Part shown: one piece after another, positions 5,332 through 31,857 of the stretch | Layout of the letters: each line of letters begins with the position of its first letter | How positions within the stretch are numbered: position 1 is the first letter of the stretch | Notes under the pieces: generated by a model | Seen by the model: the letters and a program-made list of their open reading frames with translations, nothing else | Databases searched by the model: none | What the model was told of the DNA's origin: nothing | Assembly: GCA_017546245.1 (NCBI GenBank) | Contig: JAFYXI010000069.1 | Coordinates: forward strand, 1 to 32,893 | Direction of reading: 5' to 3' | Origin: Clostridia bacterium | GTDB lineage: Bacteria > Bacillota > Clostridia > UBA1381 > UBA9506 | Length of the DNA stretch: 32,893 nucleotides | Program-made: the position numbers and the translations under genes

Positions 5332-5721
5332 GACACGAATTTTATTATTTTATATTGTCTGTATATTCGGTTCAAAAACGCTCTGTATTGTGTGCAAGAA
5401 TGATTTTTGATTCATTCTGCCTTAATTCATTCTATCGTCTTACACGGGCAATTTCATTTGGTTCTATTGCAATTTCACGGAATGTATGTTATACTTAAAT
5501 AAAATCAAGTGTGCTGATTTTTTGGCAGTTGGGCATCAAATTTGATGAGATATTCGTATAGCATCAATAAAGCATCAAAAGGCATAAGGTTCAAAAGACC
5601 GAGTGCCACAAATGGCTCAACAGTGGGAACAATTTGGACAGTCCTTTTTATATGACATTGTCTCCAAAGCCGTGTCCCTATGTTCGTATGGTAACTTGAA
5701 AAAACTTAATATTTGCTTTTT
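5332..5721. other. 390-nt intergenic stretch before tRNA-Trp, no gene seen
   Basis: No convincing gene. It contains a perfect 14-bp palindrome CATCAAATTTGATG at about 5533-5546 and further GCATCAA copies near 5562 and 5573. A frame of about 40 codons ending with TGA near 5692 has no start signal or recognisable motif. Short frames here look random. A tRNA promoter must lie near the 3' end, but I see no consensus match I would defend. Confidence 0.5.
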
Positions 5722-5797
5722 AGGGGTATAGTTCAGCTGGTAGAGCGACAGTCTCCAAAACTGTAAGTCGTGGGTTCAAATCCTACTGCCCCTGCCA
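5722..5797 (+). tRNA. tRNA-Trp (anticodon CCA)
   Basis: 76 nt with encoded 3' CCA. Acceptor arm AGGGGTA (5722-5728) pairs with TGCCCCT, with one U-G pair; discriminator G at 5794. The anticodon stem ACAGT/ACTGT (5748-5752, 5760-5764) holds loop CTCCAAA with anticodon CCA at 5755-5757. The T arm contains GGGTTCAAATCC. This is a complete cloverleaf. Confidence 0.97.
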
Positions 5798-5801
5798 ACG
5801 T

Positions 5802-5831
5802 CGGAACAAGTTTCGCTTGTTCCGATTTTTT
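5802..5831 (+). terminator. Terminator of tRNA-Trp
   Basis: CGGAACAAG (5802-5810), loop TTTCG, CTTGTTCCG (5816-5824), then ATTTTTT. A perfect 9-bp stem 4 nt after the tRNA CCA end. Confidence 0.85.
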
Positions 5832-5872
5832 ATGCAAAAAATCAGTCACTCGCTGTACCGTTCCTCCTTTTT

Positions 5873-5936
5873 CCCACAAAATCGTTGATTTTGTGGGTGC
5901 CCTGTGTTGTCTTGGCTTAAACACTGAGTTTAAGCC
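5873..5936. repeat. Two further perfect hairpins downstream of the tRNA
   Basis: First: CCCACAAAATC (5873-5883), loop GTT, GATTTTGTGGG (5887-5897). Second: GGCTTAAAC (5914-5922), loop ACTGA, GTTTAAGCC (5928-5936), followed by GTTTCTTTATTTTTATT, which is terminator-like. With the tRNA terminator they make three stems in 135 nt. Function is unknown; they may be backup terminators or pieces of a dispersed intergenic repeat. Confidence 0.6.
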
Positions 5937-6158
5937 GTTTCTTTATTTTTATTATAATTATTAAATTTGTCTGTTTTATCCTTGTTTTTTTATCTCATTG
6001 GTATAGCCGAGAAGATTGGAATGCCTTTTGTCAGTACTTTAAAGAAGCAATGAAAAAAGAAGGCTGACATTTTTAATAAATTTACACATGTCCATAAAAT
6101 TTCAGGATAAAGCGGCAAAAAATTTATGTGTGCATCTTCTCTCGCTTGTTTTCTGAAT
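5937..6158. other. Intergenic stretch with a possible 3' gene remnant
   Basis: Plus-strand frame 5990-6067 reads LSHWYSREDWNAFCQYF and ends KEAMKKEG-stop; its Trp- and Phe-rich composition looks protein-like, but upstream sequence is AT-rich with no start or ribosome binding site. It could be the last 25 codons of a deleted gene or a chance frame. Nothing else is seen before the aspA terminator. Confidence 0.3.
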
Positions 6159-6194
6159 ATCAAAAAAGCCCGGAATTATCCGGGCTTTTTGATA
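6159..6194 (-). terminator. Terminator of aspA
   Basis: GCCCGG (6168-6173), loop AATTAT, CCGGGC (6180-6185), extended by A/T pairs on both sides. On the minus strand the stem is followed by a run of six T, 56 nt past the aspA stop codon. It could work in both directions. Confidence 0.85.
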
Positions 6195-6249
6195 GTATGA
6201 GGTGGATTTAAAAATTAAAAGTTATCTTTTTATTTGCAAATTTTCTATG

Positions 6250-7629
6250 TCATATCATATTGTTAGGGTCTAATATTTTATCTAACTCTTCTGCTGACAT
6301 AATATTTTCAGCAATTACAACTTCTTTAATACTTTTTTGCTCTTTAAGTGCCTTTTTAGCGAGCGATGATGACTTAGCATATCCTATATACGGACATAAT
6401 GCCGTAACAATACCTATGCTTTTGTCAAGATTTGTTTTGCATTGCGATGAATTAACAGTCAGGTCGCATATGCAGTCTTTTATAAATATCTTAATTCCGT
6501 TGCACAAAGTATCTAAAGATTCAAATAAGCTGCGGAATATAATCGGCTCAAATGCGTTAAGCTCAAGCTGTCCTGCTTCTGCTGCATATGTAATTGTTGT
6601 ATCGTTACCTATAACGTTAAAAGATATTTGATTCATAACCTCCGGAATTACCGGATTAACCTTGCCCGGCATTATGGATGACCCGTTTTGCTTTGGCGCA
6701 AGATTTATTTCAGAAAATCCGGTTCTCGGGCCTGATGACATTAATCTTAAATCGTTTGAAATTTTAGACATTGTAGCGGCACACGATTTTATAATTCCGG
6801 ATACATACACAAATGCATCAAGATTTTGTGTTGCATCAATCAAATCATCAGCTTGCACAAGATTTAGCTTTGTTATCCTTGCAAGATTAGGAACAATATT
6901 TTTTATATACTGTTCGTCAGCATTTATTCCCGTTCCTACCGCAGTTCCACCCATATTAAGCTTAGACATTTCTTCTTCTGCAAGTTTAAATCTTTTCATA
7001 TCTCTCATTATTGCAGACGCATAGGCATTAAAAACCTGCCCAAAGCTTATAGGCACGGCATCCTGCATTTCTGTCCGCCCCATTTTTATAATATCTTTAA
7101 ACTCTTCTGCTTTTTTTATAAGCGCACTATAAAGATTTTCAAGCTGCTCATAGGTCTTATTAATAAGTCTTACTGTCGCAATTCTGCCGCTGCTGGGATA
7201 AACATCATTGGTAGACTGACCGCAATTTACATGGTCATTAGGATGCACAACAGAATAATCTCCCTTATTGCCTCCCAAAATTTCAATCGCTCTGTTTGCA
7301 ACAACCTCGTTAGCATTCATATTAAGCGATGTGCCTGCTCCGCCCTGAATACAGTCAACTATAAAATTTTCTGCAAATTTTCCTTCCAGTATTTCATCAC
7401 AGGCTTTTATTATTGCCTCCGCAATATTTTTATCAATCAGACCTGCATCCTTATTAGTTTGGGCTGCTGCCTTTTTAATTTCTACTATGCTTTTTATGAT
7501 TTCAGGATGCACTCTGCTGCCTGTAATTTTAAAATTTTCTGCAGCTCTTAGCGACTGAACTCCATAATACGCATCAATCGGCACTTCTTTCATTCCTAAC
7601 GAATCAAATTCTTGTCTGAAGTTATTCAT
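6250..7629 (-). CDS. aspA: Aspartate ammonia-lyase
   Basis: 459 aa, the usual length for the family. Converts L-aspartate to fumarate and ammonia in the cytoplasm. The fumarase/aspartase superfamily signature GSSIMPGKVNP is at residues 316-326 and contains the catalytic loop serine. Other conserved blocks are HPNDHVNCGQSTND and KMGRTEMQDAVPISFGQ; the latter favours aspartase over class II fumarase. ATG start with a GAGAGG site on the minus strand about 9 nt upstream. It is divergent from a LysR-type gene with a 111-nt shared promoter region, so it is probably the regulated target. Fumarase cannot be fully excluded without alignment. Confidence 0.88.
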   Translation of the reverse strand: MNNFRQEFDSLGMKEVPIDAYYGVQSLRAAENFKITGSRVHPEIIKSIVEIKKAAAQTNKDAGLIDKNIAEAIIKACDEILEGKFAENFIVDCIQGGAGTSLNMNANEVVANRAIEILGGNKGDYSVVHPNDHVNCGQSTNDVYPSSGRIATVRLINKTYEQLENLYSALIKKAEEFKDIIKMGRTEMQDAVPISFGQVFNAYASAIMRDMKRFKLAEEEMSKLNMGGTAVGTGINADEQYIKNIVPNLARITKLNLVQADDLIDATQNLDAFVYVSGIIKSCAATMSKISNDLRLMSSGPRTGFSEINLAPKQNGSSIMPGKVNPVIPEVMNQISFNVIGNDTTITYAAEAGQLELNAFEPIIFRSLFESLDTLCNGIKIFIKDCICDLTVNSSQCKTNLDKSIGIVTALCPYIGYAKSSSLAKKALKEQKSIKEVVIAENIMSAEELDKILDPNNMI

Positions 7630-7660
7630 AATATTTTCCTCTCTTTTTTAATCCTCATTG

Positions 7661-7689
7661 ATTATACACAAAAGCTATGATATAATCAA
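7661..7689 (-). promoter_or_regulatory. Sigma-A promoter for aspA
   Basis: On the minus strand: -35 TTGATT (7689-7684), 17-nt spacer, -10 TATAAT (7666-7661). The start codon is about 32 nt downstream of the -10. Confidence 0.7.
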
Positions 7690-7712
7690 ATACATATTAT
7701 AATATGCTTATC

Positions 7713-7728
7713 ATAACTTTAAAGTTAT
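7713..7728. promoter_or_regulatory. 16-bp perfect palindrome at the LysR gene start
   Basis: ATAACTTTAAAGTTAT lies directly upstream of the AGGAGGA ribosome binding site (7729-7735) of the LysR gene. It could be an autoregulatory operator, since LysR regulators commonly repress themselves at the divergent promoter. A second AT-rich dyad (around TATTATAATA) lies just upstream. Assignment is inferred from position. Confidence 0.45.
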
Positions 7729-7740
7729 AGGAGGAAGCTT

Positions 7741-8685
7741 ATGTTTGCAAATAAACATTACGTTTTGGCAATTATGGAAGAAGGCAGCTTTTCAAAAGCA
7801 GCAGAAAAACTATATATTTCTCAGCCATCTTTAAGTGCATCAATAAAACGAATAGAAGAAAAAATATCTGTACCTTTGTTTAACCGTTCAACGTCTCCCG
7901 TAACATTAACAGAGGCAGGAGAGGAATATGTGCGGCACGCACTTGAAATCGAGGCAACAGAAAAGAATTTTGAAAGATATATTTACGACTATGCTAATTT
8001 ACTTACAGGTTCGGTAAGAATCGGCGGAAGCAGCTTATTCTCTTCTTTTATGCTTCCGTCTATGATTTATGAATTTAAAAAGATATACCCTAACATCAAA
8101 TTTGAAGTTTCAGAGGACAGCACAAAAAATCTTATACAAAAACTCGTTTTGGGAGGTATTGATATAATAATAGATAATGCGGTAATCGACGACCCGGCAA
8201 TCAACTCTACAATATACTCAAACGAAATGCTGCTTTTAGCCGTTCCTGCATCTTATGATATAAATGAAAAATTTAAGAATTTCCGTTTTACCGCTAACGA
8301 TATAAAAAACGGAACGCATATGACAAACAATTCTGCAGTCAGCCTTAAAGCTTTTTCCGGCTATCCGTTTATCCTTTTAAATCCCGAAAACGATACAGGA
8401 AGACGAGCAAATTTACTTTTTAAAAAGCATAAAATAGAGCCGGAAACTGTGTTTTTTCTTGACCAGCAGGTTACTGCATATAATGTATCGGTTACAGGTA
8501 TGGGTATTTCTTTTGTAAGCGATACATTGGTAAAGCATACCGAAGCTGAATCCAAGCTGTATTATTATAAACTAAATGACGAAGAAATTTTAAGAAATAT
8601 ATATTTTTGCAAAAAACAAAATCATTATCTTTCCCGCGCTTGTCAGGAATTCATTGATTTTAACACTAAACTAATCTGCAATTAA
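7741..8685 (+). CDS. LysR-family transcriptional regulator
   Basis: 314 aa, typical LysR length. N-terminal winged helix-turn-helix at residues about 1-60: YVLAIMEEGSFSKAAEKLYI, then SQPSLSASIKRIEEKISVPL and the wing FNRSTSPVTLTEAG. Residues about 90-300 form the co-inducer binding domain (GSVRIGGSSLFSSFMLPSMI opens it). ATG at 7741 with an optimal AGGAGGA site. It is divergently arranged with aspA, so it most likely controls aspA in response to an amino or dicarboxylic acid; the ligand is unknown. Confidence 0.92.
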   Translation: MFANKHYVLAIMEEGSFSKAAEKLYISQPSLSASIKRIEEKISVPLFNRSTSPVTLTEAGEEYVRHALEIEATEKNFERYIYDYANLLTGSVRIGGSSLFSSFMLPSMIYEFKKIYPNIKFEVSEDSTKNLIQKLVLGGIDIIIDNAVIDDPAINSTIYSNEMLLLAVPASYDINEKFKNFRFTANDIKNGTHMTNNSAVSLKAFSGYPFILLNPENDTGRRANLLFKKHKIEPETVFFLDQQVTAYNVSVTGMGISFVSDTLVKHTEAESKLYYYKLNDEEILRNIYFCKKQNHYLSRACQEFIDFNTKLICN

Positions 8686-8729
8686 AAATAAAGGCTTTCT
8701 ATCAAAGGCAGAAAGCCTTTATTTTTAAT
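8681..8729. terminator. Bidirectional terminator, 20-bp stem
   Basis: 8681-8700 and 8710-8729 are perfectly complementary over 20 bp with a 9-nt loop. The core AAAGGCTTTCT/AGAAAGCCTTT is flanked by A and T runs, so it can terminate the LysR gene on plus and transcripts arriving on minus. Confidence 0.88.
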
Positions 8730-8740
8730 TATTTACTACG

Positions 8741-8986
8741 TTATTTGCCATATCGGTCGTTATATTCGCTCCACACCTTTTCAAACCAGTTTTCGCAAAC
8801 GGGAATAGGTCTTACATCTTCAAACCAGCATGCTTTATCTTTGTGCCATTTAAGTGTTTTTTTGTCGTATTCTTCATTCGACTTTATCGAAATCGACCGG
8901 ATACCGGTAGCATCAGATAAATCAGGGCTTTCGTTACAAAATACCGAGCCGCCTCTGCTGCCTATATTTTCGCCTGCACATATCAT
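8741..8986 (-). pseudogene. C-terminal fragment of an unknown protein
   Basis: A minus-strand frame of 81 codons without ribosome binding site, ending in a TAA 12 nt from the terminator stem. The sequence (for example KTLKWHKDKACWFEDVRPIP and VCENWFEKVWSEYNDRYGK) looks like the end of a real globular protein rather than a shadow frame, because it has the rich Trp/Cys/Asp composition of a folded domain and ends at a terminator. I do not recognise the family. The 5' part is missing; sequence upstream switches to an AraC-type fragment in the opposite direction. Confidence 0.5.
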
Positions 8987-9551
8987 ACACTCGGCAAGTA
9001 ATGATTATGAACGATATTGCGTGACATTAAATCCCGTATTATTAGACCCGTATATTCACAATTCAGATTTGCTTGGTATGCTCAAAAATCACAACTCAGA
9101 TTTTATTCATTGCATAAACTGCGAAAGTATATCGGGTACTGTCTGCGAGCTTTTTGAACGTCTTGTAAAAAGCGACTCAAAAAAGCCATATGCAAACGAA
9201 CTTTTTGCGTGTTATATAACTGAGCTTTTGATTAACACATACCGCACCAAGCCCGATAATTTTTACATACCCGAATTTCCCTGCAAGGATACTATATTAA
9301 AAATTCAAAAATACTTAGACACACATTTTTATAAAGATATTAAAATAGCCGATATCGGAAAGCAATTTTTGATAAGTAACTGTTATTTGTCGCACAAATT
9401 TAAAGAACTGACTGGCTTTTCGCCCAAGCAATATCTTACATCAGTTCGGCTTAAAAACGCCGCATATATGCTATATCACACAAACGACACGGTAAATAAA
9501 ATAGCTGCAGCTTGTGGATTTTATTTTGCCACAGCCCATTTGTTTTATTAG
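8967..9551 (+). pseudogene. AraC-family regulator, truncated at both ends
   Basis: The frame is open from 8745, but the first 74 codons are the complement of the neighbouring fragment. From about 8967 it resembles the AraC ligand-binding domain (PAHIIHSASNDYERYCVTLN) and then the DNA-binding domain (KIADIGKQFLISNCYLSHKF, KELTGFSPKQYLTSVRLKNA). It stops inside the second helix-turn-helix (CGFYFATAHLFY-stop), where intact members continue with about 20 more residues ending in a G.sP..YR motif. It overlaps the end of the 1159-aa gene by 4 nt. Loss of both ends makes function unlikely. Confidence 0.7.
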
Positions 9552-26317: not shown

Positions 26318-26346
26318 ATTATACCACAAATCAGTTCAATTTTCAA
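26318..26346 (-). promoter_or_regulatory. Sigma-A promoter for the SNF2/glycosylase operon
   Basis: Minus strand: -35 TTGAAA (26346-26341), 17-nt spacer, -10 TATAAT (26323-26318), about 34 nt before the start codon, followed by a GGTGAGGTG ribosome binding region. Confidence 0.75.
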
Positions 26347-26368
26347 GATGTTACAATACTTTATTTTC

Positions 26369-26415
26369 AAGGGTTTGACTGAACTTTGAACTTTGTGAAA
26401 TCAGTCAAAAACCTT
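26369..26415. repeat. Inverted repeat at the left edge of the prophage remnant
   Basis: AAGGGTTTGACTGA (26369-26382) pairs with TCAGTCAAAAACCTT (26401-26415) over about 13 bp with one bulge. There is no U-tract on either side, so it does not look like a terminator. It may belong to the old attachment region or the distal phage transcript. Confidence 0.4.
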
Positions 26416-26419
26416 GTGG

Positions 26420-26449
26420 TTAGTAACAAATTAGTAACAGGTTAGTAAC
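26420..26449. repeat. Three TTAGTAAC copies with exact 11-nt period
   Basis: TTAGTAAC at 26420-26427, 26431-26438 and 26442-26449, directly downstream of the amidase stop. The period is one helical turn, as expected for adjacent protein-binding sites on one DNA face, such as recombinase arm sites. Function is inferred only from spacing and position. Confidence 0.55.
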
Positions 26450-27210
26450 TATCTTTTTTCGCAGAAATCAAGGGAAATCCATCCTGCACCGGACTTCAAT
26501 TTTCCCCATCCCTTCTTTGAACCCTGACCTGCTTTTTCAGCAACAATTGTGTAAACACCTTTGTTTCTGATAACACCTGCCACATTGTAGTTTGTACCTG
26601 CACCCCTTCTGATATTCAGTGCAGATGCAGTGACCTTGACAAGATAAGGTTTGAAAGGTTCAGGTGTAGAAGTAGTTGTTTTCACACCAAGTCTTTTGTT
26701 GACTTCTGCAACAATTTCATCATGTCTTTCATAAAGGTAATCACCGGGGCAAGACTTGTTTGCATAATCTCTGTGAACAGTCAGGTTGCATCCGTTTTTG
26801 TGATTCACTCTGTCAGACTTATTGGTTGACCAAACTAACTTCTTGATTTTGTTTCTTTTGCAGATGTCGGTCACAAGGTCAATCAATGCTGCAAATGCCT
26901 TGTCATTGACTGCATAAGGTGATGTCATATCACTTGCAACTTCAATTGTGACTGCTCTGTGGTCATTTGATGCGGAAGAAGTACACCAAGACCTGTTCTT
27001 TTCTTCAACATACATTCCAATTCTGCCATCATAACCAATGCCATAATTGCAAGATGCCTGTCTGCTTTCCGGTGCAAATATACTTCCAAGTGTTTCAACA
27101 GAACACTGACCAACTACACAATGAATTGTAATGGTATCAATTGCATGGTTTCTTTTGCCTGAATGGTTAGGACTTAACTTTGTATAACTTACCAAAGAAC
27201 TGTTTGCCAT
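26449..27210 (-). CDS. Phage endolysin: N-acetylmuramoyl-L-alanine amidase with SH3 domain
   Basis: 253 aa. Amidase_2/PGRP domain at residues about 15-175: zinc ligand His in DTITIHCVVGQC, then NLTVHRDYANKSCPGDYLY supplying the second His and the Cys ligand. Linker TTTSTPEPFKPY and a bacterial SH3 domain at about 190-250 (ASALNIRRGAGTNYNVAGVI, ending AGWISLDFC) for wall binding. It cuts the amide bond between muramic acid and the stem peptide at the end of phage infection. No signal peptide, so release needs the adjacent holin. Start ATG overlaps the previous stop (TAATG). Confidence 0.95.
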   Translation of the reverse strand: MANSSLVSYTKLSPNHSGKRNHAIDTITIHCVVGQCSVETLGSIFAPESRQASCNYGIGYDGRIGMYVEEKNRSWCTSSASNDHRAVTIEVASDMTSPYAVNDKAFAALIDLVTDICKRNKIKKLVWSTNKSDRVNHKNGCNLTVHRDYANKSCPGDYLYERHDEIVAEVNKRLGVKTTTSTPEPFKPYLVKVTASALNIRRGAGTNYNVAGVIRNKGVYTIVAEKAGQGSKKGWGKLKSGAGWISLDFCEKR

Positions 27211-27395
27211 TATTCATCTTCCCCCTTTCCATCACCTTCACACATTGCATTGATGGTGTCTAAATCCACAACATCCCCTTCTTCATCATAGATGTAACCG
27301 GTTTCTTCGTCATAGTTCAGACCGCCAACATAGGGAAGGTCATCATCAATTTCATGATTGTAATATCTTAAATTTAATTCAGGTTTCTTTGCCAT
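27210..27395 (-). CDS. Small acidic phage protein, unknown
   Basis: 61 aa, strongly acidic (for example YIYDEEGDVVDLDTINAM and GDGKGEDE). AGGGGAA ribosome binding site before ATG 27395; the stop overlaps the amidase start. Similar short acidic proteins occur between holin and endolysin in clostridial phages, but I know no function. Confidence 0.7.
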   Translation of the reverse strand: MAKKPELNLRYYNHEIDDDLPYVGGLNYDEETGYIYDEEGDVVDLDTINAMCEGDGKGEDE

Positions 27396-27397
27396 AA

Positions 27398-27658
27398 TTA
27401 TTCCCCTTTCGGTTTAGTATAGGTTAATGCCCTTGCACTGTCTGAAACACCCTTGGTTGTAGGGTCAACAACTACACCGAGAATGACCAAAACGGAAAAG
27501 ACCGCATTGACCACATCAAGAAGTTTGTTTCCCAATTCACCCAAATCAAGGGTGTAACCAAAAACGGATGCAATTACCTGAATCAGTAGAAGCACCGCAG
27601 GAATAATTGCAATCCAAAATGCCTTGTTTTTAATTCGTACAATCCAATTGATATTCAT
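27398..27658 (-). CDS. Phage holin, phiLC3 family
   Basis: An ATG at 27667 overlaps the preceding stop codon, but the AAAGGA site and the family pattern favour ATG 27658 (86 aa, MNINWIVRIKNKAFWIAIIP). Two hydrophobic segments: FWIAIIPAVLLLIQVIASVF and LLDVVNAVFSVLVILGVVV, separated by GYTLDLGELGNK, then DPTTKGVSDSARALTY, a hallmark of this family. It permeabilises the membrane for the amidase. Confidence 0.92.
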   Translation of the reverse strand: MNINWIVRIKNKAFWIAIIPAVLLLIQVIASVFGYTLDLGELGNKLLDVVNAVFSVLVILGVVVDPTTKGVSDSARALTYTKPKGE

Positions 27659-27663
27659 ATTTG

Positions 27664-27975
27664 TCATCCTTTCCTTTTCAAATGTAATTCTTCAATTTCA
27701 TCATGCATTTTTGTGACCATACCATTTCCACCCAATGCATGATATGCTTCATACATTTCCATAAAATTCTGATATGCGTATGAAGGAATTTCACCAAGTT
27801 TGGTGTATTTATCATGATATTCAATAAGCTGCACACGCAAAAGAAGCATTGTTCCCTTGCTGTTTGCATCCCTATCTTTTTTCTGCCTTTTCAGCAACCA
27901 CACAATATATCCCATTAAGGATGTCAAGACAATGGGTAGTGCTATTTTATAGGTTGCCATCAAAAATTCCGCCAC
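27664..27975 (-). CDS. Phage small membrane protein, lysis module
   Basis: 103 aa; GTG start at 27975 with AGGTGA 6 nt upstream. One N-terminal membrane segment (YKIALPIVLTSLMGYIVWLL) followed by a charged helix (KRQKKDRDANSK) and a helical C-terminal part (YHALGGNGMVTKMHDEIEEL). The 4-nt overlap with the downstream ORF start suggests coupling. It resembles proteins found just before holins in clostridial prophages, possibly a holin accessory or antiholin; function not proven. Confidence 0.75.
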   Translation of the reverse strand: MAEFLMATYKIALPIVLTSLMGYIVWLLKRQKKDRDANSKGTMLLLRVQLIEYHDKYTKLGEIPSYAYQNFMEMYEAYHALGGNGMVTKMHDEIEELHLKRKG

Positions 27976-28007
27976 ATCAAATCACCTGTTCCTTTCCTGA
28001 AATAAAG

Positions 28008-28047
28008 AACCGCCCTGAAAGGCTCAAATTTGCCCTTCAAAGCGGTT
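28008..28047. terminator. Hairpin between tail-associated and lysis genes
   Basis: AACCGC (28008-28013) pairs with GCGGTT (28042-28047), with an inner 8-bp stem TGAAGGGC/GCCTTTCA (minus strand, one G-U). T-rich tails follow on both sides (TTTTTGTTTTT on plus, CTTTATTTC on minus). On the minus strand it may attenuate rather than stop the phage transcript. Confidence 0.55.
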
Positions 28048-28101
28048 TTTGTTTTTAGGTATATAGTTCCATACCCTTTGTCCTTTTCGTTGCCCCTGTG
28101 G

Positions 28102-28230
28102 TTATTCTGTTACCAAATCACCACAATCAAGGTCAATCAGAACTTCTTTGACCTGATTCTTGATTCTTTCAGGAACATCAGCAAAGTTTTTCTTGCCTTT
28201 GATGATAAGTGTTGCATATACAACTGCCAT
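28102..28230 (-). CDS. XkdX/CD1375-like small phage protein, copy 2
   Basis: 42 aa, too short for simple ORF calling: MAVVYATLIIKGKKNFADVP, then ERIKNQVKEVLIDLD. An AGGATGTG site precedes ATG 28230. It parallels the neighbouring 35-aa protein at 28278-28385 (MA.VYA.LI.KG...DVPE pattern), so the two are paralogues. This short family sits after tail-fibre genes in Firmicutes phages; function unknown. The frame could extend to an ATG at 28278 (58 aa), but paralogy and the ribosome binding site favour the shorter form. Confidence 0.75.
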   Translation of the reverse strand: MAVVYATLIIKGKKNFADVPERIKNQVKEVLIDLDCGDLVTE

Positions 28231-28277
28231 GTCTTTCACATCCTTTCTGAATAGAATTTTCACGATAAACCAAAACA

Positions 28278-28385
28278 TCAAGCATCACCATCCAAGATTG
28301 CCTGAACTTCCGCTTTCAGATGTTCCGGAACATCATCAATGGTTTTGATACCCTTTTTGATTAAATCCGCATAAACTTTTGCCAT
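28278..28385 (-). CDS. XkdX/CD1375-like small phage protein, copy 1
   Basis: 35 aa: MAKVYADLIKKGIKTIDDVP, then EHLKAEVQAILDGDA. A GGAAGG/AGGTG region lies upstream. Conserved small protein of phage tail modules (XkdX-like). Too short for ORF calling but has a clear start, ribosome binding site and family pattern. Confidence 0.75.
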   Translation of the reverse strand: MAKVYADLIKKGIKTIDDVPEHLKAEVQAILDGDA

Positions 28386-28405
28386 AATCAATACACCTTC
28401 CTTTC

Positions 28406-28666
28406 TTAAATCATCAGTTCATAAACTTCACACAAAGCAATCTGTGTGTCGGTCAACTGTGTTTCGAGGTTTGCATTCTTGTCATCAATGATTTTTATGT
28501 ATTCATCTTTGGAATATCGCACCTGATTGAATTCATATTCAATATGGGTGTCATCTTCATGTGTGACTTCCACTTCCTGAATATCAGTGTTTATCCAAAC
28601 ACTGAAATCATCAATGACCTTTTCTTCCGGTTTGATTGTGCTTCTGATTCTGCCATAATCAATCAT
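28406..28666 (-). CDS. Small phage tail-module protein
   Basis: ATG 28666 with AAAGGGTGA upstream gives 86 aa beginning MIDYGRIRSTIKPEEKVIDD, the pattern of a short protein commonly found after tail-fibre genes in clostridial prophages. C-terminal half is a coiled-coil-like helix (YSKDEYIKIIDDKNANLETQ). Its start overlaps the reverse transcriptase stop by 8 nt (ATGATTGA), so it is coupled to the RT gene. Function unknown. Confidence 0.75.
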   Translation of the reverse strand: MIDYGRIRSTIKPEEKVIDDFSVWINTDIQEVEVTHEDDTHIEYEFNQVRYSKDEYIKIIDDKNANLETQLTDTQIALCEVYELMI

Positions 28667-29750
28667 GATTTTCACCCTTTCCTTTGACATGATATAAATA
28701 ATATGTTTCAGCATACTTTTCAAGCGGTTTCAAGTATTTCTGTTGCAGTCTGTAACTGTCGCACCATTTCAACCAACCTTTATATGAATTGATTGAACAC
28801 CATTCAGAATATGTCATTTCCTGACCTTGTAACCGCTTTTTGTTAATTCCAAGCATCTTTCTTTTGAACTGTTTGCAAGTGCTTTTCCTTAACAAAGTAT
28901 AATTCAGAAAAGACCGATAACCCACAAAATCAAGACCTCTTTTGAATGTAGGAAATACCTGCCAATTTTCCTTGATGGTTAGTTTCAAGTTTGCCCGGAA
29001 ATATTCATCAATTTCTTTCCGCAGCTTATGCAGATATTCTTTTGATTCATGCAGGATTGTAATATCATCCATGTATCTGAAATAATGTTTTATCCCTTTG
29101 ACTTCTTTCAGCCAATGGTCAAATGCGGAAAGATAAAAATTTCCACTGTATTGACTTAAATAATTACCAATTGGGATTCCTGAATCACCGGGTGTTGAAT
29201 CAATAATTTCATCAAGCAACCACAAAAGGTCATTATCTTTGAACAATCGTCTGTATTTTGTTTTCAGGATTTCATGATTGATGGAAGGGTAATATTGTTT
29301 TGCATCAATTTTCAAACAATACTGTGACCCTTTCACATCAGTGTGCATTGCCTTTTGAACATTTGACAGACAAAGGTGAATTCCCCTTCCGGGAATAGCA
29401 GAATAAGTGTCAGAAGTCAGATTCCGCAGAATGATTGGTTCAATAATTTGAAGAACCGCCCACTGACAAATTCTGTCCGGGAAATAGGGCAATTTGTAAA
29501 TCAATCGTTTCTTTTTACCATCATTTTTGATAAAAGTTTGATATTCAGAAGTGTGGTATGTCTTATTGATAAGCATTTCTTGAAGTTTCCCCAAATAATA
29601 TTCAGGGTCAGCATCAACCATTTTAACTTCTTTGTACCATCCTTTTCCTTTCTTCGCATTCTGATGTGCAAGTTTCAGATTATCCATAGAACATATTGCA
29701 TCCCACAATGTGCAACTATCATTGCCGATTGGGTGTATATGTCTTTTCAT
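28659..29750 (-). CDS. DGR reverse transcriptase
   Basis: TTG at 29780 opens the frame, but ATG 29750 with an AGAGGA site upstream is the better start (363 aa). RT motifs: motif A LKIDAKQYYPSI (D149), the DGR-type motif PIGNYLSQYSGNFYLS (I194-Q200, matching the IGxxxSQ signature that replaces the QG of group II introns) and the catalytic YMDD at 226-229. C-terminal LDFVGYRSF and RKSTCKQFKRKM fit the thumb region. No maturase, endonuclease or protease domain. The template repeat lies 141 nt upstream. It copies the template RNA with adenine-specific errors and the cDNA replaces the variable repeat. No Avd-type accessory protein is visible. Confidence 0.95.
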   Translation of the reverse strand: MKRHIHPIGNDSCTLWDAICSMDNLKLAHQNAKKGKGWYKEVKMVDADPEYYLGKLQEMLINKTYHTSEYQTFIKNDGKKKRLIYKLPYFPDRICQWAVLQIIEPIILRNLTSDTYSAIPGRGIHLCLSNVQKAMHTDVKGSQYCLKIDAKQYYPSINHEILKTKYRRLFKDNDLLWLLDEIIDSTPGDSGIPIGNYLSQYSGNFYLSAFDHWLKEVKGIKHYFRYMDDITILHESKEYLHKLRKEIDEYFRANLKLTIKENWQVFPTFKRGLDFVGYRSFLNYTLLRKSTCKQFKRKMLGINKKRLQGQEMTYSEWCSINSYKGWLKWCDSYRLQQKYLKPLEKYAETYYLYHVKGKGENHD

Positions 29751-29855
29751 CTTTGGATTCCTCTTTGTATGCACTTTCAAACTGAATCTTCAAACGGATG
29801 GAATATCCTACCAATACAGTTCAAAAATAGAATTTTTATATTTTGCCATGAGGCA

Positions 29856-30049
29856 GGGCAAGCAGTTTCACAACATTTATTTTTTAATTGCATTTACTAA
29901 GTGACCGCTGATATTCCGATTACGATTACCGACACTATTATTCACATTCCAATAGAAAGTACCTGCATTACTGCCATTATTCCAATTACTGCCTAATTGG
30001 GTGATAAATAATGAATTTTTGTATCTTTATATCAAACCTGTGCTTGCCC
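29856..30049. repeat. 9-bp inverted repeat enclosing the template repeat
   Basis: GGGCAAGCA (29856-29864) and TGCTTGCCC (30041-30049) are perfect complements 176 nt apart, in otherwise AT-rich sequence, one on each side of the TR. In RNA they could close a stem around the template. Inferred from sequence only; a 9-bp match can arise by chance. Confidence 0.4.
29891..30005 (-). repeat. DGR template repeat (TR)
   Basis: 115 nt aligned without gaps to the variable repeat 194 nt further on. On the coding strand it is rich in AAT codons, including W-N-N-G-S-N, F-Y-W-N-V-N-N and G-N-R-N-R-N when read in the target frame. It is non-coding, between the target gene and the RT gene, in the standard VR-TR-RT order. 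Confidence 0.97.
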
Positions 30050-30084
30050 GTTTATTTTAATTAAATTTTATGATGCCGTTGGTA

Positions 30085-30199
30085 CATACACCAAGCGACC
30101 GCCGATAAACCGATAACGAACACCGACACCATTATTCACAAGCCAAAAGAAAGCACCCGCACTACCGCCATGATTCCAAATACCGCCCAATAGGGCGAT
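30085..30199 (-). repeat. DGR variable repeat (VR)
   Basis: Ungapped 115-nt match to the TR with 24 differences, every one at an adenine of the coding-strand TR (24 of 38 adenines changed; 0 of 77 other positions). Changes include AAT to ATT, CAT, AGT, CTT, GTT, TAT and TTT. It encodes the end of the target protein, 5 codons before its stop. Confidence 0.97.
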
Positions 30200-30304
30200 T
30201 CTGTAACCATTTAGGTTTGCGGTAACATAAGCATAGTCACCAACAGGAAGTGAAGATGTTCCACCACAAATTTTAATGCTTGTAAACAAATTCGGGTAAA
30301 AGTA

Positions 30305-30333
30305 TTGAAAAATATAATGGCATATGCTATAAT
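30305..30333 (+). promoter_or_regulatory. Sigma-A promoter for a structured RNA
   Basis: -35 TTGAAA (30305-30310), 17-nt spacer, -10 TATAAT (30328-30333). The predicted start at about 30340 falls at the first base of a long helix, supporting a dedicated RNA gene. Confidence 0.75.
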
Positions 30334-30339
30334 AAGGTT

Positions 30340-30500
30340 GCGACATAAATCTGAATATTTGATATATACGTGTGTATTTTTATACCTTTCGGTAAAAATG
30401 CATGCTCTTTTTCGCATACGTGTATGTCAAAAGGATTTGTGTCGCAACAAAAGTCATGCATTTTTCGGTGCATCGGCTTTCGGTGCACCTTTTTTATTTT
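30340..30500 (+). ncRNA. Unassigned structured RNA or leader with terminator
   Basis: Closing helix: GTTGCGACATAAATC (30337-30351) with GATTTGTGTCGCAAC (30434-30448), 15 bp including one G-U. Second helix: GATATATACGTGTG (30361-30374) with CATACGTGTATGTC (30415-30428), 14 bp with three G-U pairs. Inner hairpin: ATTTTTA (30376-30382) with TAAAAAT (30393-30399), loop TACCTTTCGG. A terminator follows: GGTGCA (30467-30472) with TGCACC (30484-30489) then T6ATTTT. No open frame of note. I do not recognise an Rfam family; 6S-like RNA, a riboswitch leader or an antisense RNA are possibilities. The G-U-tolerant helices argue for selection on RNA structure. Confidence 0.6.
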
Positions 30501-31529: not shown

Positions 31530-31783
31530 TAAGGAATAATTAAAGACTATGATGAAGCAAAGTAGGCTCGCACTACCTAATAAAGAGAGGATTTCTCACC
31601 GGCTGAGAGGAAATCCGGTTAAGGCGATAACCGAAATTTCACTTCGGAGTTGCACGGCTGAACACAAGTAGGCTGTGACGATTAGCAGGCGTAAGCTGCG
31701 TTTGAGTGCTCTGCTTTGCAGAGAATCTGGGTGGTACCGCGGATGGCACAGCCGTTCGTCCCTTTTCGGGACGGACGGCTTTT
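31530..31783 (+). promoter_or_regulatory. T-box leader controlling pheS
   Basis: The T-box sequence TGGGTGGTACCGCGG is at 31728-31742. It is followed by a terminator, GCCGTTCGTCCC (31751-31762) with GGGACGGACGGC (31768-31779), then TTTT. Stem I region 31550-31690 contains the AGAGAGG and GGCTGAGAGG elements. A TTC at 31638-31640 is a plausible phenylalanine specifier codon. Uncharged tRNA-Phe would pair with the specifier and T-box to open the terminator. The specifier position is inferred from the downstream gene. Confidence 0.92.
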
Positions 31784-31857
31784 ATATTTTGCGTCTCGTA
31801 AAAAAGTATCTGGGTTAAAAACCCGTAAAAGAGCGGCTTTTTTGCCGCAGGAAAGGA

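Follow-up and report, generated by a model that had tools for sequence, protein, structure and literature searches.

The template of a diversity-generating retroelement (DGR) from a Clostridia bacterium appears to hold adenines of two classes: adenines preceding A or T, mostly in AAT codons, would be randomized, and adenines preceding G would almost always be read as G. The DGR itself is a remnant, not a working system, and the locus appears to be a 3.9-kb prophage remnant (26323-30271). We give the overall explanation, which combines a prophage remnant, homing from template repeat (TR) to variable repeat (VR) and two classes of template adenine, a probability of about 0.8.

Here, we describe the TR/VR pair and its reverse transcriptase (RT), the behavior of template adenines in the same and other RT clades, and the history of the prophage. 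The window is the whole stretch of DNA analyzed, 32,893 nucleotides long; it consists of the first bases of contig 45 in a genome of 2.03 Mb and 73 contigs that is 97% complete. The context rule for adenine draws on about 120 relatives over two RT clades, loci that share ancestry, and the evidence for it is comparative, not biochemical.

The TR/VR pair and the reverse transcriptase

Features of the locus are collected in Table 1. On recomputation over the minus strand, 24 of the 38 TR adenines are changed in the VR and none of the 77 other bases, with no gaps, exactly as an earlier note on this DNA had counted; the hypergeometric probability of this adenine-only pattern is 2.8e-15. The substitutions comprise 13 A>G, 9 A>T and 2 A>C, and the similarity of the two repeats ends outside the 115 nt. 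Also present are the IGxxxSQ and YMDD motifs that the note had reported in the RT, here as IGNYLSQ and YMDD. The identification as a DGR is borne out by the adenine-only divergence together with concerted change of the remaining bases in 59 distinct TR/VR pairs from the same RT clade. The remark that mostly AAT codons are altered was wrong, as the 21 altered codons include just 8 AAT, which hold 11 of the 24 changes; the others are ACC, CAA, TTA, AGT, GCA, ACT, TAT, AGC, CAC and GTA.

Table 1. Features of the remnant locus in the window
Feature	Coordinates	Strand	Evidence and remarks
Left end of remnant, 9-bp direct repeat ACCACAAAT	26323..26331		Within probable attachment core
Phage endolysin (N-acetylmuramoyl-L-alanine amidase)	26449..27210	(-)	Amidase_2, endolysin phrogs
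Phage holin, phi LC3 family	27398..27667	(-)	Phage_holin_1, TIGR01598
Small phage gene adjoining holin	27664..27975	(-)	phrog_4105, unknown function
Small ORF	28406..28723	(-)	phrog_18126, unknown function; overlaps RT 3' end; conserved in L011 and L014
DGR reverse transcriptase, intact	28659..29780	(-)	373 aa from TTG; phrog_1423 (E 4e-124), RVT_1
Template repeat (TR)	29891..30005	(-)	115 nt, pairs ungapped with VR; 115/115 identical in L011, L012 and L013
Phage-derived 3' end of target tail-protein gene	30068..30265	(-)	Last 65 codons and stop; phrog_5302 positions 484-545 of 548
Variable repeat (VR)	30085..30199	(-)	24/24 differences at TR adenines; VRs of relatives align
Right end of remnant, ACCACAAAT	30263..30271		Deletion junction of target gene (GTTCCACC) and host attachment site, 3-nt overlap ACC
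Host DNA read as N-terminal 27 residues of the 92-aa VR-bearing ORF	30266..30346	(-)	Non-phage

From 5' to 3' on the minus strand, the VR-bearing gene is followed by the TR, the RT, the conserved small ORF, a second small phage ORF, the holin and the endolysin. The RT, which also has an in-frame ATG (MKRH) at 29750, falls in the DGR clade on the RT tree. A defense-associated RT (DRT) was considered and rejected: PADLOC matches a generic RT model best and the DRT classes less well, the similarity is weak and generic only, and a TR/VR pair exists. No Avd family match was found among the window ORFs tested, and the phrog_18126 ORF comes after the RT. Between the RT and holin modules, two alike ORFs of about 40 aa stand in tandem (28137-28248 and 28302-28386). 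The constant TR/VR differences at sites 104, 108, 111 and 112 resemble IMH/IMH*; a GC-rich run is absent there. The genome contains no further VR for this TR, and nothing else in it resembles the TR.

Two classes of template adenine

The RT clade of the window (the W clade) provided the 59 pairs for comparison. Among these relatives, 12 of the 24 window changes are variable (sites 8, 20, 28, 38, 53, 58, 59, 79, 80, 85, 91 and 92) and the other 12 are near-constant (sites 4, 12, 16, 34, 42, 46, 70, 97, 104, 108, 111 and 112). Where the TR has A at a near-constant site, the VR carries the same base in 15/19 loci at site 34, 28/32 at site 70 and 94-100% at the others. Half of the window changes therefore appear to be constant features, uninformative as diversity, and the count of 24, although exact, overstates the diversity, 12 of the changes being the same in nearly every relative.

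This near-constancy comes mainly from a context rule, namely that a template A before G appears as G; seven of the 12 near-constant window sites are adenines before G. The base following the 38 TR adenines of the window is A in 11 cases, T in 14, G in 7 and C in 3, with three adenines terminal, and all seven AG adenines become G, compared with 2 of the 25 before A or T (p 1e-5). Across the W clade, an A before G is represented in the VR by G in 213 of 215 cases and by A in two, never by C or T. Before A, the VR has 41% A, 28% G, 22% T and 9% C, and before T it has 44% A, 30% G, 10% T and 15% C. When VRs from near-identical TRs are compared within the clade, they differ at 1/45 AG sites, 77/136 AA sites, 80/146 AT sites and 6/743 non-adenine sites. 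In their variability, AG adenines appear to behave as non-adenines.

The RT tree implies no fewer than 11 changes to or from A at column 42 of the TR, a synonymous site. The VR is G in all 25 loci with a TR A, and at non-A sites it follows the TR. Because the VR tracks the non-A bases and shows G for every A, this column must be copied, with A read as G.

Two further candidates for the cause of the rule were rejected. One was mutational lag, in which the TR has changed ahead of the VR: other TR/VR mismatches number only about 31 in the 59 loci, against 213 AG sites. The other was the motif-4 residue (IGNYLSQ) as the only cause, as W-clade members with IGNYISQ obey too, and Perkons (IGNYLSQ) gives 2/3. 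As a separate observation, 14 of the roughly 31 rare non-adenine mismatches in the W clade are T>G, mostly at T before A (before C or T in the BPP-1 clade), for example at L028 site 78, L034 site 66, L060 site 78 and L094 site 52; these RTs possibly make a second kind of error at low frequency.

Other RT clades and earlier work

A search for ungapped TR/VR pairs in another 210 loci yielded 171 pairs. The clade of the cr55_1 phage (the cr55 clade) follows the same rule, with 114 G, 3 A and neither C nor T at 117 AG sites, and its VRs from near-identical TRs differ at 1/21 AG, 64/89 AA, 57/89 AT and 10/654 non-A sites. With the two clades pooled, such VRs differ at 2/66 AG sites and at 278/460 adenines before A or T. 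Outside these clades, the G share at AG is 0-50%: the BPP-1 clade has 14 G and 14 A, the LBR48 clade 16 G, 18 A and 2 T, the C47 clade G at 1/4, and five loci of other clades G at 0/6. The AG rule is not a general law of DGRs, since relatives of BPP-1 and LBR48 are half A and half G and the five other-clade loci have no G at all. The W, cr55 and BPP-1 clades alike never show C or T at AG, and they differ in the fraction of these adenines read as G.

Earlier surveys described DGR substitutions as essentially random, with G the commonest (PMC3521204, PMC6642488). For BPP-1 in Escherichia coli, one study names the 3' neighbor as the main determinant of misincorporation at adenine; it stresses NAC, where G misincorporation reaches 26.8%, gives 0.08% G misincorporation at NAG, and proposes a slippage model in which A is read as whichever base follows it on the 3' side (PMC12875486). 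That model would fit AG>GG and fails in the W clade at A before C, which becomes C in 3% of cases, and at A before T, which becomes T in 10%. The 3'-neighbor effect is thus already known for BPP-1; we found no report of near-determinism at AG in the DGR literature surveyed, and an earlier mention elsewhere is possible.

As to mechanism, an A before G would be equivalent to a template G, a 'silent' adenine: the RT, having just paired C with the template G, would place C opposite the next A. Silent adenines might instead arise through adenosine deamination of the TR RNA, or through mismatch repair that turns the cDNA/VR heteroduplex back to G. Either process gives A>G only, and some deaminases favor a 3' G, which would fit. 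We nevertheless regard both as unlikely. The AG rule shows no 5'-neighbor preference (CAG, TAG and GAG are all 99-100% G) and follows the RT clade across many hosts. Repair should, moreover, depend on the former VR base, whereas column 42, at which all four bases occur in the TR across loci, gives G for every A. Control by the 3' neighbor has also already been shown for a DGR RT, in the BPP-1 study cited above. We infer that the AG rule resides in the RT, while sequence alone does not separate the fidelity of the enzyme from editing of the template or a repair bias at cDNA/VR mismatches.

It is very improbable that the A>G constancy at AG stems from selection acting on the target protein or on its codons: many of the sites are AGT>GGT changes (Ser>Gly) at plausible structural residues, but protein selection is excluded for AG sites by fourfold-degenerate third positions, of which 79/81 are G in the two clades (W clade 33/33 over 11 distinct 13-mers, cr55 clade 46/48 over 23), whereas W-clade fourfold adenines before T are mixed (23 A, 9 G, 5 C and 2 T; n=39), and TTA has become TTG in 43/44 cases among the W-clade pairs. 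At A before C, the bias is probably due to protein selection, which probably accounts for part of these sites, such as ACT>GCT; AAC retains 53% A in the W clade.

These comparisons make it probable, in our view, that two large RT clades use a two-class template code. A before A or U, and often before C, would be randomized, and A before G would be read as G in some 97-99% of cases, so that AG equals GG as letters. The RT, and not just codon placement, would pick the diversifying adenines, in a code that is clade-specific.

The prophage remnant and its target gene

At the left end of the remnant, phage homology starts at about 26318 and host homology stops at about 26343. In a congener (genome G002, locus L091) the host flanks lie 100 bp apart with the prophage absent, an empty site in which L091 position 5076 corresponds to window position 26343 and 5179 to 30263. 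Together with the comparison with near-identical phages, this empty site is what leads us to read the locus as a prophage remnant. The roughly 100 bp of palindrome-rich sequence at L091:5076-5179 is missing from the window and is perhaps a small mobile repeat. Beyond the remnant, 31541-31790 upstream of pheS looks by eye like a T-box leader, with a GGGTGGTACCGCGG motif and then a terminator-like hairpin.

The target gene, which encodes a tail protein (phrog_5302), retains all 709 codons in phages L011 and L014, and L011 also keeps an integrase directly beyond the endolysin. In the window, similarity of the target to all relatives stops at 30265/30266, and 30263-30334 matches intergenic DNA of the congener (L091:5179-5250). 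The target appears to have been beheaded, with 91% of its length gone and 65/709 residues kept, and no complete expressible target gene lies in cis. Missing too are the integrase and the structural genes that this type of phage carries. The 'complete diversification core' of the earlier note thus stands for the RT, TR and VR, which are complete, and falls for the target.

The intact target of the relatives is predicted to have a C-type-lectin fold, with the VR close to the 3' end of the gene. A predicted structure of the last 342 residues of the L011 target (pLDDT 84) matches the Thermus aquaticus protein TaqVP (5vf4) with Z 23.6 and rmsd 2.7 over 245 residues, and Mtd with Z of about 12; searching solved structures with the target sequence had given no useful match.

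We propose that a temperate phage of rumen or gut Clostridia, carrying a lectin-fold tail protein diversified by its DGR, integrated at ACCACAAAT beside an NMN-transporter gene. While the system functioned, TR RNA would have been reverse-transcribed and the cDNA would have replaced the VR. A later deletion would have removed everything from about target codon 645 through to the far attachment site, leaving the lysis genes, the RT, the TR and the last 65 target codons with the VR. The remnant would now be without function. Just upstream of the VR, 66 nt of the target are identical to L011 (66/66), although the RT differs by 7.0%. Since the RT is intact and these 66 nt are unchanged, the simplest history has a deletion that is recent on the scale of RT divergence, with an assembly error less likely.

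Such an error would mean that a full prophage exists in the cell and that the truncation is an artefact. The remnant is known from a single contig of a metagenome-assembled genome (MAG) in 73 contigs, so a chimeric contig is possible, and the 66 nt show no decay. The junction, though, shares just 3 nt, too few for a k-mer join, and the left junction agrees with the empty site of the congener. The 97%-complete genome has no match to the L011-type integrase or distal-tail protein and lacks the N-terminal part of the target; its only target-like sequences are the 3' end in the window and a distantly related target in a second prophage. We therefore consider an artefact improbable. A search of the phage and genome collections for this remnant gave only other members of the clade and no second copy of the junction.

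It is more doubtful still that the cell carries an intact, active DGR, with the 92-aa ORF as a minimal target or the cassette acting in trans. The RT is intact and under purifying selection on the window branch (22 synonymous and 7 nonsynonymous changes; 94% identity to L011), and the VR equals the TR at every non-A base. Yet the first 27 residues of the ORF are host intergenic DNA, only 65 of about 300 lectin-domain residues are retained, and the minus strand upstream of the ORF lacks a strong promoter-like site. A target in trans would lack a partner in the genome, in which nothing else resembles the window TR and the second DGR has an RT, TR and VR of its own.

That second DGR prophage lies on contig 47 (22000-40000, locus L092), with the TR at 7881-7997, the VR at 7707-7823 and the RT, 42% identical to the window RT, at 7923-9176. 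Its target (5533-7833) is complete, with 766 aa and a BppU_N start, and 16/30 TR adenines are changed and none of the other bases.

Does TR/VR agreement date the homing?

The earlier note took zero drift at non-adenine sites to mean very recent activity, a reading that does not hold. The window TR is identical to those of L011, L012 and L013 (Table 1), while the RT diverges from L011 by 7% and the VR-TR spacer by 13.9%; the 66 nt before the VR are unchanged as well. Given this TR identity, constraint or recent exchange would suffice, and no homing after the truncation is needed. TR/VR identity at non-adenines should therefore not be taken as a sign of recent activity.

Across the 59 W-clade loci the TR varies, and the VR varies alongside it at nearly all bases except adenine; each pair has 15-30 adenine differences and, in nearly all, 0-3 others (range 0-8). 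By this comparison, homing has clearly shaped the TR/VR pair within the phage lineage, and it cannot be timed from the window. The TR of L014 (L014:8242-8356) has two A>G changes, at sites 42 and 46, relative to the identical TRs of L011-L013. Its VR equals that of L011 despite this change, which may mean that the assembly is mixed or that a VR-like copy has replaced the TR.

Implications

Counts of mutated adenines serve as a mark and a measure of DGR activity. With half of the changed adenines in the window carrying no diversity, repertoire size and activity will be overestimated unless the following nucleotide is taken into account, and perfect TR/VR agreement, which can outlast the decay of a prophage, does not prove that a DGR was active recently. 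That A before G is read near-deterministically in some RT clades only offers a comparison for how RTs lose fidelity at adenine alone, and a way to shield chosen positions in DGR mutagenesis tools. A context code that exempts A before G from diversification in two RT clades would be a general result, and one worth testing.

Comparison with known systems

The closest relatives are W-clade phages from IMG/VR (L011-L014), whose RT is 94% identical to that of the window, followed by rumen MAGs (L094-L096) at 83-87%. They share the C-terminus of the target and, in L011-L013, the TR; unlike the window remnant, L011 and L014 have a full target gene and L011 an integrase. The cr55_1 phage and its relatives (L127, L197-L276) share the reading of AG as G (114/117) and an IGNYLSQ RT, but belong to a separate RT clade with other repeats and targets. 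TaqVP resembles the predicted fold of the intact L011 target; in the window, just the C-terminal 65 residues of this domain are left. The DGR of Bordetella phage BPP-1 (Mtd; NC_005357) differs in having Avd between VR and TR, none being seen in the window, in mostly AAC rather than AAT codons, and in a clade where AG is half A and half G (14/14) rather than 99% G as in the W clade. It has in common with the window the order VR-TR-RT on one strand, an IGxxxSQ RT, adenine-only divergence, a lectin-fold tail target and control of misincorporation by the 3' neighbor of adenine (PMC12875486).
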